The translations under genes were made by a program, and so were the position numbers. From Bacteroides uniformis (GTDB taxonomy: Bacteria > Bacteroidota > Bacteroidia > Bacteroidales > Bacteroidaceae), in contig NZ_CP102263.1 of NCBI RefSeq assembly GCF_025147485.1, forward strand, positions 1,439,501 to 1,503,500: 64,000 bases of DNA. Reading direction: 5' to 3'. The notes under the pieces are model-generated. The model worked only from the letters and a program-made list of their open reading frames with translations. It did no database searches and was not told the DNA's origin. Below, in pieces: positions 4,312-60,640 of the stretch (the stretch's first letter is position 1; the number at the start of each line of letters is the position of its first letter).

Positions 4312-5076
4312 TTAGTCTTTTAAAAATGGAAACAAGTCACTCATTCCCAAAGCACCTTCGTGCTTGGCGGTATATTCGGCAGCAAGGACAGCTCCCAAGG
4401 CAAATCCCCTGCGATTCTTGGCATCGTGGGTGATAGTGATACTGTCGGCTTCGGAGTCGTAGCGGATGCTGTGGATGCCCGGTACTTCTCCTTCGCGGAT
4501 AGAACTTATGGATAGCTCATTGGCTGCACATTCCGTAGAGCCCGAAACGGTTCCGTCGGGAGCTTGGAAAGTCCCTTCTACCCATTTGTCCTTACGGTCG
4601 AGATTCTCCAGAATACCTTCGGCAAGCGTGATGGCCGTTCCGCTCGGAGCGTCCATCTTGTGGATGTGGTGCGTTTCGCTCATTGTCACATCATAGGCAG
4701 GGAATTGGTTCATTATCTTTGCGAGGTACTTGTTGACGGCAGAGAAGATGCTTACTCCCAAGCTGAAGTTGGAAGACCAGAACAGTGTCTTGCCGCCTTC
4801 GGTACAAAGTCTCTTTACTTCGTCTCCATGTTCTGCCATCCATCCCGTACTGCCGGATACCAGTTTGACCCCGGCGCGGAATGCCTTCATATAGTTATTG
4901 TATGCAACCATGGGGTTGGTGAACTCTATGGCAACGTCGGCGCTCTTGAAGGCTGCCGATTCAAAGTCTTCCTGATTGTCGACATCGATGATGCTTACAA
5001 TTTCGTGTCCGCGGCCAAGGGCTATTTTCTCGATTTCCTTGCCCATTTTTCCGTAGCCGATTAATGCGATTTTCAT
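4312..5076 (-). CDS. dapB: 4-hydroxy-tetrahydrodipicolinate reductase
   Basis: DapB reduces 4-hydroxy-tetrahydrodipicolinate with NAD(P)H in the cytosol, a step toward diaminopimelate and lysine. The 254-residue product has the Rossmann motif GYGKMGKEI at residues 7-15. The family signature THHIHKMDAPSGTA at residues 135-148 carries the catalytic His137 and Lys140. It is slightly shorter than E. coli DapB (273), as is usual for Bacteroidetes. It heads the minus-strand operon with both signal-peptidase genes 6 nt downstream. A clear Bacteroides -7 box lies 45 nt upstream of the ATG. Confidence 0.96.
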   Translation of the reverse strand: MKIALIGYGKMGKEIEKIALGRGHEIVSIIDVDNQEDFESAAFKSADVAIEFTNPMVAYNNYMKAFRAGVKLVSGSTGWMAEHGDEVKRLCTEGGKTLFWSSNFSLGVSIFSAVNKYLAKIMNQFPAYDVTMSETHHIHKMDAPSGTAITLAEGILENLDRKDKWVEGTFQAPDGTVSGSTECAANELSISSIREGEVPGIHSIRYDSEADSITITHDAKNRRGFALGAVLAAEYTAKHEGALGMSDLFPFLKD

Positions 5077-10956: not shown

Positions 10957-11092
10957 ATACTGAATACCCACAACACCCGGATGTTTTACCCCATAACATC
11001 CGGGTGTTGTGCTATAAAACATGGGGATGTTTTGGGGTAATACATCCCCATGTTTTGGGTGAATACATCCGGGTGTTGTGGGTATTCGGTAT
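10957..11092. repeat. Array of five palindrome-framed units at exactly 23-nt spacing, enclosed by 28-nt inverted repeats
   Basis: Five 14-nt units of the form (A/T)ACA-N6-TGTT start at 10972, 10995, 11018, 11041 and 11064, exactly 23 nt apart. Their N6 cores are CCCGGA, TCCGGG, TGGGGA, TCCCCA and TCCGGG, so units pair with one another: 1 with 2 or 5, and 3 with 4. The outer arms 10957-10984 and 11065-11092 are complementary at 27 of 28 positions. The element fills the gap between two convergent genes (PL8 lyase and dus) and could work as a bidirectional terminator with competing stems. Confidence 0.85.
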
Positions 11093-29701: not shown

Positions 29702-30784
29702 ATGAAAGACCTTTTATCTATTGTATCTCATTTTCAAATGCAGGGTACGGTTCGTGAAATCAAGCCTTTAGGCTCAGGCCTGATTAACGATACGTACAAA
29801 GTGACCACCGTTGAGGCCGATGCGCCGGACTATGTTCTGCAACGTATCAATCATGCCATTTTCCAGAATGTAGAGATGTTACAGTCTAATATCGAGGCTG
29901 TGACCGGGCATATCCGTAAGAAGCTGGAAGAGAAAGGAGAGGCCGATGTCGAGCGTAAAGTGCTTCATTTCATCCCCACGGCCGAAGGGAAAACCTATTG
30001 GTATGACGGTGAGAACTACTGGCGTATCATGACTTTTATTCCCCGTGCCAAGACTTACGAGACGGTGAACCCCGAATATTCCTATTATGCGGGAACTGCC
30101 TTCGGTAATTTCCAGGCTATGCTTGCCGACATTCCAGATACATTGGGCGAGACAATTCCCGATTTCCACAACATGGAGTTCCGCCTGAAGCAACTCCGTG
30201 ACGCTGTGGCTGCCGATGCTGCGGGACGTGTGCAGGAGGTGCGGTATTTTCTGGATGAGATAGAAAAACGCGCTGATGAAATGTGTAAGGCAGAACGTCT
30301 GTACCGTGAAGGCAAACTGCCCAAACGGGTATGCCACTGTGATACGAAAGTAAACAACATGATGTTCGACGAAGACGGTACGGTGCTTTGTGTCATTGAC
30401 CTGGATACGGTGATGCCCAGCTTCATCTTCTCCGATTATGGCGATTTCCTTCGCTCAGGTGCCAACACGGGGTTGGAAGACGACAAGAATCTGGATAATG
30501 TGAACTTCAATATGGAAATATTCCAGGCATTTACCAAGGGTTATCTGGAATCGGGCAAATCCTTCTTGTTGCCGATAGAGATTGAGAATCTGCCTTATGC
30601 GGCTGCCTTGTTCCCATACATGCAGTGCGTACGCTTCCTGGCAGATTATATCAACGGTGATACTTATTATAAAATCCTGTATCCGGAGCACAATCTTGTG
30701 CGTACCAAGGCTCAGTTCAAACTGTTGCAGAGCGTGGAGGAGCATACACCGGAGATGAAAAAATTCATTGACTCATGTATCTGA
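29702..30784 (+). CDS. APH-fold sugar kinase resembling N-acetylhexosamine 1-kinase (NahK)
   Basis: The 360-residue cytosolic protein belongs to the aminoglycoside-phosphotransferase fold. It has a glycine-rich start (LGSGLINDTYKV, residues about 21-32), the Brenner catalytic motif CHCDTKVNNMMFD near 210-222 and the metal motif VIDLDTV near 230-236. Length, the GLIN-D-T-Y start and the HCDTKxxN motif match the N-acetylhexosamine 1-kinase family (NahK of bifidobacteria is 359 residues), which phosphorylates GlcNAc or GalNAc at C1. Next to a chondroitin/hyaluronan locus such activity would activate the amino sugar released by GH88 (inference). An upstream in-frame TTG lies before the promoter box, so the start at 29702 is preferred. 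It overlaps the next gene by 10 nt. Confidence 0.82.
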   Translation: MKDLLSIVSHFQMQGTVREIKPLGSGLINDTYKVTTVEADAPDYVLQRINHAIFQNVEMLQSNIEAVTGHIRKKLEEKGEADVERKVLHFIPTAEGKTYWYDGENYWRIMTFIPRAKTYETVNPEYSYYAGTAFGNFQAMLADIPDTLGETIPDFHNMEFRLKQLRDAVAADAAGRVQEVRYFLDEIEKRADEMCKAERLYREGKLPKRVCHCDTKVNNMMFDEDGTVLCVIDLDTVMPSFIFSDYGDFLRSGANTGLEDDKNLDNVNFNMEIFQAFTKGYLESGKSFLLPIEIENLPYAAALFPYMQCVRFLADYINGDTYYKILYPEHNLVRTKAQFKLLQSVEEHTPEMKKFIDSCI

Positions 30785-31509
30785 AAAAGTTTTTAATGAC
30801 GATAGCGGCAGCTCTTTGCATGTTGCCGCTATCTGCAATTAATCCCCAAAATAGTAAAATGAAAGAATTGAATGTAAAGAAAGTAAGTGCGGCCAATATA
30901 CCGGTAGAGTCGGTTCCGGCTCTTCTGGATGAAGAGAAGGTGGCGTTTCAGCCCGTAAACACAGTGAATTGGGCTGCTTTTCCTTATACTCCCGATGTGG
31001 AATTCCGCATAGCGCATACGGAAGATGCCATTCTGCTGCATTTCAAGGTAAGGGAAGCGAGTGTACGCGCAGTTGCAGGCCACGATAACGGTCCGGTTTG
31101 GGAAGATGCGTGTGTAGAGTTCTTCTCTGTGCCTGCCGATGACGGAGTGTACTACAATATGGAGTGTAATTGTGCCGGGACTCTGCTTATTGGGGCAGGT
31201 GCCGGACGTGGAAACCGCCAGCATGCCCCGCAAGAGGTGCTCGATAAAGTACAGCGTTGGGCTTCTTTGGGACGTGAGGCTTTCGACGAAAGAGTAGGTG
31301 AGTGTGCCTGGGAAGTGGCCCTGGTCATCCCTTATTCCGCTTTCTTCCTGCATGACATCACTTCGTTGGATGGAAAGACGCTCCGTGCCAATTTTTATAA
31401 ATGCGGTGACAAGCTCCAGACTCCCCATTTCCTTTCCTGGAATCCGATAGGTCTGGAGAAGCCGAACTTCCATTGCCCGGAGTTCTTCGGTACCCTGCAT
31501 TTCGAGTAG
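30775..31509 (+). CDS. CBM9-like carbohydrate-binding secreted protein
   Basis: The 244-residue product has a signal peptide (KKFLMTIAAALCMLPLSA) and one beta-sandwich domain resembling the family-9 carbohydrate-binding/DOMON-like proteins of Bacteroides. Typical blocks are WAAFPYTPDVEFRIAHTEDA near residues 66-85, VWEDACVEFFSVP near 113-125 and LRANFYKCGDKLQTPHFLSW near 204-223. It could bind sugars in the periplasm or at the surface; no catalytic residue set is known. The ATG at 30775 overlaps the kinase stop by 10 nt, which implies translational coupling; a second ATG at 30796 is possible but would shorten the signal peptide. It is the last protein gene of this block, followed by long repeat-bearing DNA. 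Confidence 0.8.
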   Translation: MYLKKFLMTIAAALCMLPLSAINPQNSKMKELNVKKVSAANIPVESVPALLDEEKVAFQPVNTVNWAAFPYTPDVEFRIAHTEDAILLHFKVREASVRAVAGHDNGPVWEDACVEFFSVPADDGVYYNMECNCAGTLLIGAGAGRGNRQHAPQEVLDKVQRWASLGREAFDERVGECAWEVALVIPYSAFFLHDITSLDGKTLRANFYKCGDKLQTPHFLSWNPIGLEKPNFHCPEFFGTLHFE

Positions 31510-31533
31510 TAGTAGAACAAAAAATTACTCAAC

Positions 31534-31640
31534 CTGCCCTCACCACTATCACCGCTTTTCTGAAACTCCCTATTCATCGCCCTTTCAAGGGTGAGTGAGA
31601 GCAAATAAAAAGGGTGAGGGCAAATTCTACCCTCACCCTT
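31534..31640. repeat. 107-nt stem-loop element, copy A
   Basis: CTGCCCTCACC at 31534 can pair with GGGTGAGGGCA at 31612-31622, and the latter can pair instead with CCCTCACCC at 31630-31638, giving mutually exclusive stems. A copy of identical length lies at 60377-60483, with about 83 of 107 positions identical by ungapped hand alignment. The shared minus-strand open frame (PHPF-x-LLS) is not conserved as protein: most differences fall at first and second codon positions. Confidence 0.85.
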
Positions 31641-31763
31641 CCGAGCGTACCCGGTTGCTTCCTGCTTCTTTCCCCGTCTTTTATAGGACAAGACAGACCA
31701 TTGTCTACAGAAACAGTATAATAAATACCCTTTATATACTTAATCCGTTAGTTCACAACACTG

Positions 31764-31909
31764 AACACTTTGTTCCAGCATTAGAGAACACTTTGTTTCA
31801 GTATAGAAAAACACTTTGTTTTCATATAATGGAACGAACTGTTTTGTTAAGGGAAACAAAGTGTTTTCTATAAGGAAACAAAATGTTTAGTTAAAGGAAA
31901 CAGTTTGTT
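31764..31909. repeat. Array of seven AAC-N5-GTT units at 22-23-nt spacing
   Basis: Units start at 31764, 31787, 31810, 31833, 31855, 31877 and 31899, with steps of 23, 23, 23, 22, 22 and 22. Cores are ACTTT three times, then GAACT, AAAGT, AAAAT and AGTTT. The first three are complementary to the fifth and (nearly) sixth, and the fourth nearly to the seventh. The region can fold as one long stack or be read as a regularly phased array of palindromic sites, two helical turns apart. Confidence 0.85.
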
Positions 31910-31989
31910 TAGCATACTGCCTGGAATGAATATGCATCAAAAAATAGTAAAAGACAATGCAGGAACTATTGTAGAGGAATATAGAAAAA

Positions 31990-32054
31990 GGCACGAACTA
32001 CGCAGACTTACAGAAAAGAATTTATTCATCCGTATTGTCTGCGTGATTCGTGCC
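31990..32054 (-). terminator. Long imperfect hairpin downstream of lpxA
   Basis: Arms 31990-32007 and 32037-32054 are complementary at 16 of 18 positions (GGCACGAA...ACGCAGAC). It begins 14 nt past the lpxA stop and is the likely end of that transcript, though no strong T-run follows. Confidence 0.5.
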
Positions 32055-32067
32055 CGAAGAAGGGTGT

Positions 32068-32835
32068 TTACTTCACGATTCCTTTGGAATTCTTGATGAA
32101 GTTGATGATATTGTGTATCTCGTCACTCATCGGTACTTGGTCTTCAATCTTCTGCAAGGCATCCTGCACGCTGAAGTTTCCCTGGTATACCAGACGGTAG
32201 GCATTTACGATATGGCGCAATACACGTTCGCTCACCTGGTGTTTGTGTTGAAGCACAGCAGCGTTGATACCGTGGTATTCCGCCGGATTACCGTTCATGA
32301 TGATATAGGGCGGCACATCCTTTGATATGCGGCAGCCAGCTTGAATCAGTACCCAACTTCCAATGTGGCAGTATTGGTGCAGAATGACGTTGCTACTCAG
32401 AATGGTGCAGTCGTCTATCTGACATTCTCCGGCTACGGTAGTCTTGATACCCAGTACACAATGGTTGCCTATCTGCACGTCGTGGCAGAGGTGTACACCA
32501 TCCATCAGGTAGTTTTCATTGCCGATGCGGGTGGCGCTTCCTGCATGGGTAGCACGGCTGACAACCACGTTCTCGCGGATGTCGTTATTATCACCGATAA
32601 TCAGCATGCTGTTCTCTCCCGTATAATGGAAGTCTTGCGGTTCGGCACCCAGAACGGCATTGTGATGCACCTTGTTCCCTTTTCCCATGCGGGTACCGTG
32701 CAGAATTTTTGCCCCCGACATAATAATACAGTCATCACCGATTTCCACGTTCCCTTCGATAAATGCAAAGGGCTGGATGGTTACATTCTTGCCGATTTTT
32801 GCGGTAGAATCTACATAAGCTAACGGACTTATCAT
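32068..32835 (-). CDS. lpxA: Acyl-ACP--UDP-N-acetylglucosamine O-acyltransferase
   Basis: LpxA transfers a hydroxyacyl chain from acyl carrier protein to UDP-GlcNAc, the first step of lipid A synthesis. The 255-residue product is a left-handed beta-helix with many hexapeptide repeats (such as IGKNVTIQPFAFIEG). The catalytic His118 lies in GVHLCHDVQIGN, matching His125 of the E. coli enzyme, with His115 matching His122. A C-terminal helical region is present. It stands alone here, outside the usual lpxD-lpxC/fabZ-lpxA cluster, so it may be a second copy (inference). A hexapeptide acyltransferase with another substrate is less likely given the motif match. Confidence 0.88.
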   Translation of the reverse strand: MISPLAYVDSTAKIGKNVTIQPFAFIEGNVEIGDDCIIMSGAKILHGTRMGKGNKVHHNAVLGAEPQDFHYTGENSMLIIGDNNDIRENVVVSRATHAGSATRIGNENYLMDGVHLCHDVQIGNHCVLGIKTTVAGECQIDDCTILSSNVILHQYCHIGSWVLIQAGCRISKDVPPYIIMNGNPAEYHGINAAVLQHKHQVSERVLRHIVNAYRLVYQGNFSVQDALQKIEDQVPMSDEIHNIINFIKNSKGIVK

Positions 32836-60260: not shown

Positions 60261-60376
60261 AATGCTGCTGTTCTTTTCGACGATTTTCCATCGTGCGAAG
60301 ATACGACTAATCCGTCAAAGTGGCTAAGTAATGCCCGGAAAATAATTTGACTCTTTCCGTTTTTAAGTTTGCATTT

Positions 60377-60483
60377 CTGCCCTCACCGCTCTCACTCTTT
60401 TCTTCAACTTCCCTATTCAACGGCATTGCAGGGGTGGGTGAGAGCAATCGAAAAGGGTGAGGGTAAATTTTGCTCTCACCCGT
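60377..60483. repeat. 107-nt stem-loop element, copy B
   Basis: Homologous to 31534-31640 over its whole length without gaps. CTGCCCTCACC (60377-60387), GGGTGAGGG (60455-60463) and CTCTCACCC (60473-60481) repeat the three-arm arrangement in which the middle arm can pair with either neighbour. Confidence 0.85.
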
Positions 60484-60564
60484 GTTTTCTTCCGTTCCGC
60501 ATCCTTCTTTCTTCTGTTGCATCCTTTTCATTCTTTCGTTTTACTTTTGGATTCTTCAGCAGCC

Positions 60565-60640
60565 CACGTTAGTGAGCCGTGATGTTCACTTGAGTGAACT
60601 AAACAGCTCACTAGTGTGGTTGAATTGGTTCATAACAGTG
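60565..60640. repeat. Array of four CAC-N4-GTG units at exactly 22-nt spacing
   Basis: CACGTTAGTG (60565), CACTTGAGTG (60587), CACTAGTGTG (60609) and CATAACAGTG (60631) start exactly 22 nt apart. Concentric inverted repeats run across them: GCCCAC/GTGGGC, AGTGAGC/GCTCACT and GTTCACT/AGTGAAC, centred near 60592-60602. Confidence 0.8.

Follow-up and report, generated by a model that had tools for sequence, protein, structure and literature searches.

Porphyromonas gingivalis is a member of the order Bacteroidales. Its BrickBuilt element, a MITE present in 19 copies, has been described as intergenic and composed of 23-nt tandem units (up to 22.8 of them) with a leader and a tail, predicted stem-loops and IS5-like terminal inverted repeats (TIRs) such as GAGACCTTTGCA; the string "palindrom" is absent from the main text of that report (PMC4596501). 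In Escherichia coli, BIMEs are extragenic and consist of alternating inverted units and linkers; they bind gyrase and IHF, and a role at transcript ends has been proposed (PMC2817692). The 11-bp periodic class A flexible patterns display a helical-turn periodicity, and protein sites have been proposed for them; they are described as diffuse and genome-wide, in coding and non-coding DNA alike, whereas the repeats reported here are discrete intergenic arrays with a period of 22 nt (PMC1242344). Among the open-licence literature matches listed, the titles and abstract beginnings do not describe a 22-nt palindrome class in Bacteroides.

Here, we analysed a 64,000-nt stretch of the Bacteroides uniformis chromosome (the window; positions 1439501-1503500 of contig C1, the single 4.63-Mb contig of genome G000). 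The original prediction claimed seven AAC-N5-GTT units at 22-23-nt spacing, and direct reading of the sequence places them at 31764, 31787, 31810, 31833, 31855, 31877 and 31899, that is, with steps of 23, 23, 23, 22, 22 and 22 nt. Two convergent genes flank the array, one encoding a CBM9_2 domain protein and the other lpxA (Table 1). Among the named LpxA sequences compared, from which records of the own species may be missing, that of Bacteroides rodentium is nearest (97%). As far as the published description goes, BrickBuilt is a close analogue: it is likewise intergenic with a one-sided leader, and its tandem unit is given as 23 nt; the AAC family differs from it in its 6-9 units per copy, its switch from 23- to 22-nt steps, its palindromic frame and the lack of an IS5-type TIR. 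With the BIME and REP elements, as described, the AAC arrays share inverted palindromic units and an extragenic position; a further mark of REP/BIME elements is the binding of gyrase, IHF or Pol I. The hairpin and T-run on the lpxA side of the array, which a terminator scan with a loop limit of 8 did not report, are probably the lpxA terminator. A search of the 64-kb window against Rfam gave 0 matches at the gathering score. We also noticed a second dispersed element of approximately 120 nt, with CCCTCACC/GGTGAGGG hairpins, at 31520-31640 and 60376-60485 of the window, where it adjoins both the array at 31764 and the candidate array at 60565; a third copy lies elsewhere in the chromosome (L139, G000 about 2091836).

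Table 1. Features of the window, in window coordinates
Feature	Position	Strand	Basis or remark
Second array, 5 units ACA-N6-TGT, 23-nt steps, within a longer inverted repeat	10973..11076	none	
Gene of a CBM9_2 domain protein, directed at the array	30775..31509	+	Pfam PF16011, E 5.5e-105
Terminator-like hairpin, on the other side of the array from lpxA	31608..31642	-	terminator scan
Leader word TTAGTTCACA, conserved	31748..31757	+	starts 15 nt 5' of the 13-nt unit 1
Units 1-4 (RAACR-N3-YGTTY, 13 nt each), 23-nt steps	31763..31844	+	
Whole seven-unit AAC-N5-GTT array	31764..31909	none	unit starts; genome-wide triplet excess over control
Units 4-7, 22-nt steps; 23/22 junction at unit 4	31832..31910	+	
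Hairpin followed by T-run, between the lpxA 3' end and the array	31990..32054	-	by eye
lpxA (UDP-GlcNAc acyltransferase)	32068..32835	-	PF00132 and PF13720; convergent with the CBM9_2 gene
Possible third array, 3 units CAC-N4-GTG, 22-nt steps (weak)	60565..60618	none	frame scan

The array is not a single occurrence. Three AAC-N5-GTT units in a row (gaps of 10-14 nt) were found 67 times in the 4.63-Mb genome, while the reversed-pattern control gave 0, and a 401-bp array query had 30 matches in the same chromosome. From the query matches and the pattern search we parsed 13 arrays, i.e., that of the window and 12 further places. The array at 31764 belongs to an intergenic repeat family that is dispersed over the B. 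uniformis chromosome in at least 13 copies. The leader TTAGTTCACA, with 0-1 mismatch, stands exactly 15 nt before unit 1 in 11 of the 13 copies, the exceptions being L123 and L129. When copies are oriented with the leader first, 10 of the 11 run through all their 23-nt steps before any 22-nt step (L130 is the exception); the two leaderless copies also have a single 23/22 switch, but for want of a leader they were oriented by that very switch. The numbers of 23- and 22-nt steps differ by at most one in 10/13 arrays, against about 20% expected under a uniform split (nominal P 1.6e-5, with copies that share descent), so that 23- and 22-nt steps are about equally frequent in those arrays, compared with the 23-nt repeat by which BrickBuilt is described. 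All 11 arrays with a leader have ACTTT as the core of unit 1, and the cores vary at later positions; between copies, core identity is 0.657 at the same unit position versus 0.516 at different positions.

Next to the constancy of the frame, little else in a unit is fixed. Across 97 units of the 13 arrays, AAC was present in 97/97 and the three bases of GTT in 95, 95 and 96; this constancy is partly ascertainment, because a unit was accepted within an array if it had 4 or more of these 6 bases, and at an array end if it had 5, although hardly any of the two misses permitted inside arrays were used. Three degenerate end units (in L131, L134 and the window array) were left out of this count. AAC and GTT are flanked mostly by R and Y, respectively, and the N3 core and the linkers vary, which leaves a dyad-symmetric frame with freer cores and linkers. 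This layout (a 13-nt frame with a variable core, linkers of 9-10 nt and no long unique spacers) is the ground on which CRISPR was rejected, as the original prediction had it. Within the units of G000, variation at the purine end is independent of that at the pyrimidine end (Fisher P 0.37 and 1.0), and across linkers the association of ends (P 0.03) runs in the direction against pairing. Two other genomes have two kinds of half-site side by side, and there the dyad symmetry of the core ends is retained when one kind replaces the other (40 vs 23.1 expected in G106, 13 vs 6.6 in G120); G118 shows no such excess (27 vs 26.5).

Placement of the arrays relative to genes was assessed in four genomes. 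Among 46 AAC arrays, 15 lie in convergent, 28 in tandem and 3 in divergent gaps, and the corresponding numbers for 67 other gaps are 11, 39 and 17. Divergent gaps are avoided (P 0.012) and the enrichment in convergent gaps is weak (P 0.07), both values being obtained with a crude gene caller and from array copies that share descent. G000 also has 13 array calls outside the AAC family for which both flanking genes are present, and 3 of them are in divergent gaps. ORFs of at least 100 aa overlap more than 35% of 3/46 AAC arrays (ORFs of 105-119 aa, no ORF having been removed), 3/15 other array calls in G000 and 1/16 arrays in the 62 lpxA loci introduced below (L102, 369 aa); the ORFs of 105-119 aa which overlap two of the 13 own-genome arrays (L127 and L130) are probably spurious. 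The AAC arrays are therefore intergenic and avoid divergent gaps. They are also dispersed and non-coding, as BrickBuilt is.

The kept frame, the free core, the spacing of about two helical turns and the placement between the ends of genes are what successive dimer sites on double-stranded DNA would show. We tentatively favour, by analogy, a BIME-like intergenic element, the dyad units of which, two helical turns apart, would be putative sites for a dimeric DNA protein. Each unit might then be bound by one homodimer and, since the units are about two turns apart, the dimers would all face the same side of the helix and cover 100-200 bp of DNA between the ends of genes. Such arrays could act as the E. 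coli BIMEs do in gathering gyrase or IHF, with a likely effect on supercoiling or nucleoid structure at the ends of transcription and not on mRNA. If gyrase or a nucleoid protein is indeed recruited to gene ends by the arrays, they would be a Bacteroides counterpart of BIMEs. Against dimer sites stands the independent variation of the two unit ends in G000 and G118. Two turns of relaxed B-DNA correspond to 21 nt, and 22-23 nt is not exactly that.

Complementarity within the array had been proposed between units of its first and second half, together with compensation between partner units. In the window copy the complementarity is literally present, as the cores of units 1-3 (ACTTT) are complementary to that of unit 5 (AAAGT); it is, however, no greater than family composition gives. 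Single copies can look paired (11/15 mirrored bases in the window array, 10/10 in L134), but over the 13 arrays there are 28 complementary core pairs versus 31.3 in shuffles (P 0.80). Around the 23/22 junction, complementarity is 0.506 vs 0.517 for mirrored units (P 0.67) and 0.402 vs 0.398 for mirrored linkers (P 0.42). Compensation is thus not supported, and at the lpxA and dapA loci we found no orthologous arrays suited to a comparison of compensation between species. These data bear on the possibility that the arrays are RNA elements, i.e., 3'-end hairpins which stop transcription or protect mRNA. Raw folding energies would speak for it, being far beyond those of shuffles (z -6.7, -5.2 and -11.6; the strand of the array at 31764 folds at -53.1 kcal/mol, z -6.7), and so would the palindromic units, the rarity of arrays in divergent gaps, and the terminator-like matches that some arrays contain or overlap. 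However, the fold is no better than that of chimeras of the same units (mean z 0.03 vs in-array reshuffles and -0.13 vs between-array reshuffles), the predicted folds differ from copy to copy, and pairing covariation is missing in G000; the lack of conserved partner pairing speaks against an RNA fold. Moreover, hairpins do not need a fixed 22-nt period, and the array at dapA lies between two outward terminators. We thus consider an RNA element unlikely.

We searched the window for chains of any palindromic trinucleotide frame (at least 3 units, steps of 18-30 nt, plus or minus one). Chains occurred at only three places, 10973, 31764 and 60565, and five doublet-shuffled windows had no palindromic-frame chains at these steps. 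When steps of 14-41 nt were allowed, one more chain was found (step 33, at 1431), and a shuffled window gave one chain, with steps of 40-41. The ACA-N6-TGT array at 10973 has four further genomic places and folds at -89.5 kcal/mol (z -11.6). The claim that these arrays are unlike ordinary dispersed repeats is therefore only partly right, as both this second array and the array at 31764 (at least 13 recognisable copies) are members of dispersed families. In the 10973-11076 array and its relatives L135-L138, units such as ACATCCGGATGT, ACATGGGGATGT and ACATCCCCATGT are repeated at 23 nt and flanked by words like those of the TCAGT...ACTGA family, and the window copy is a near-perfect long hairpin.

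The same scan was applied to 464 kb of G000, namely the window and 20 evenly spaced stretches (chains of at least 3 units, steps of 14-41 nt allowed). The steps were 22 nt in 31 cases, 23 in 18, 21 in 5 and any other value in 9; without the AAC copies (two stretches) and the window array, the numbers are 22, 9, 5 and 9. The families include TCAGT-N5-ACTGA, TGCAG-N5-CTGCA, TGCCA...TGGCA, AACG..CGTTACCCTATATTG and AATAAAGG..TTATTCTTAAG, so the 22-nt period recurs with differing arm lengths and words. Two chains, L151 at 19381 and L152 at 494, are inside ORFs of 306 and 184 aa, respectively, and probably arose by chance. Autocorrelation of the 464 kb gave 9 places at lag 22, 2 at 44, 1 at 23, 2 at 21 and 6 at other lags, and none in the shuffled set. 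Both the excess at 22-23 nt and the single architecture with locus-specific sequence, which the original prediction put forward, are thus borne out in the DNA sampled, with several unrelated palindromic words at 21-23 nt, mostly 22.

The period is also found outside this genome. A set of 62 lpxA loci was taken from Bacteroides, Prevotella and their relatives (452 kb, 92% of which is covered by ORFs of at least 100 aa); in these loci autocorrelation gave 11 places at lag 22, 4 at 21 and 1 each at 23 and 44; other lags were 14 (6 places), 54 (8, inside the lpxA gene itself) and others (3). Small control samples gave no arrays at lags 21-23 in E. coli (200 kb), a 22-nt array (L217) as well as a single lag-21 match in other families of the class (165 kb), and, in 163 kb from other classes of the phylum, nothing at lag 22 but two matches at lag 21, one of which is a clear array (L234). 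Three AAC-N5-GTT units in a row are present in 36/60 genomes of the genus, the own genome included (713 forward matches vs 8 with the reversed pattern), and in 0/60 other genomes of the phylum. The AAC family is part of a broad class of palindrome arrays that occurs in several Bacteroidales and has a period of 21-23 nt, most often 22. Genomes G106, G118 and G120 together supplied 33 AAC arrays, in which the steps (21-24 allowed) were 22 in 143, 23 in 13 and 21 in 3 cases. Their linkers form a mosaic of reused words; ACACCGA and AAGGCAT, for example, each occur in 14/33 arrays, across the three genomes. Flipping of units is not claimed, as the mixed orientation of linker words looks mostly like that of whole arrays.

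Of the 16 arrays in the lpxA loci, 15 are outside ORFs, which in this sample amounts to about one array in every 2.4 kb of the DNA left uncovered by ORFs; if this density holds more widely, such arrays would be among the commoner non-coding features of these gut bacteria. A selected position at lpxA was rejected, since 8/16 arrays lie in the gap downstream of the gene, which makes up 39% of the intergenic DNA (P 0.26). In B. clarus and B. gallinarum this gap holds a differing 21-nt array (L067 about 4408-4494, L106 about 4417-4503), bounded in L067 by the inverted words GCAATCTTA and TAAGATTGC. Conservation of position downstream of dapA is suggestive only: a strict detector (21-23 nt) reported an array just downstream in 10 of the 30 loci fetched, out of 56 genomes matched, and a tRNA-Arg was recognised beyond the array in 5/10 of them. 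The array is flanked on both sides by outward terminators, with one terminator-like match inside it; two of the calls, L241 and L245, are weak and coincide with a terminator hairpin. The array words downstream of dapA mostly differ between species, which indicates that, beside an orthologous gene, entire arrays are replaced and only their spacing persists. Few interspersed repeats hold a constant period without a constant sequence, and this feature predicts a factor or a copying mechanism that counts helical turns. Because the half-sites differ, one protein could not read all families by sequence. The shared spacing of unrelated-looking arrays points to a common way of being made or used. It is possible, if speculative, that the repeat class is set by geometry and that one common machine working in two-turn steps makes or keeps all of the arrays, whose words would be wholly exchanged from one species to the next, even where the neighbouring gene is orthologous.

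A close rival to the dimer sites, and one compatible with their later use, is a selfish origin: an element comparable to BrickBuilt, either MITE-like or a minisatellite, that spreads as whole copies, the period being a by-product of copying without host function. Its dispersed copies with one conserved end and the positional homology of the cores (0.657 vs 0.516) would agree with this, as would BrickBuilt itself, which is described as an intergenic 23-nt tandem repeat with leader and tail (PMC4596501). In L130 (G000 about 2641900-2642180) a direct repeat, GAAAATATAG, of 9-10 nt is found on both sides of the array and is either a possible target duplication or chance; the other 12 copies have direct repeats of 5-6 nt at scattered places (8 copies) or none (4), with no fixed place. 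No inverted leader copy beyond the null was found at the far end of the 13 arrays, and the best matches to the BrickBuilt TIR in the flanks of 13/13 copies have 3-5 mismatches in 12, as in random flanks. A transposon with terminal inverted repeats was thus rejected. The frame is kept while the cores drift, and several unrelated families have the same period, which likewise argues against a selfish element; we regard it as rather doubtful.

REP units are about 35 nt long. As described, they are longer than those found here and RAYT-linked, whereas the present palindromic unit is of about 10-17 nt at a 22-nt period. Formation of the arrays as REP/BIME elements by a RAYT (Y1) transposase would account for inverted half-sites, reused linker words and intergenic place, and some array-rich genomes (G018, G012, G107) have one PF01797 match. 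That profile, however, reached the cut-off in only 11/60 genus genomes, with no match at that level in the array-rich G106, G118, G001 and G021 and 0 matches in G000 at E 0.001; on the latter ground a RAYT origin, which is very improbable, was rejected.

Database records were also searched for the arrays. Plasmids gave no match to the array, and 14 IMG/VR contigs matching a unit pair contained only one chain of 3 units. Four records labelled Bacteriophage sp. (MT839571, MT836348, MT836022 and MT837093) match chromosome loci at 97-99.9% over the compared 1.6-4.1 kb and are B. uniformis-like bacterial chromosome contigs. In three of them the arrays are identical or differ by one base. There are 0 differences between L270 and L123 in the array; because the left flank is nearly identical too, extra conservation of the array is not claimed. 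MT837093 (L271/L288) follows the L126 locus into the array as far as unit 4 and diverges immediately beyond that unit, where the 23-nt steps give way to 22-nt steps; the DNA from there on is absent from G000 and encodes a PbeA-like helicase and an SMC-type ATPase, whose best PADLOC matches are LmuB and PbeC. The record could possibly be a chimeric assembly. The array of the L126 locus, broken at its centre in MT837093, adjoins tRNA-Leu/tRNA-Gly.
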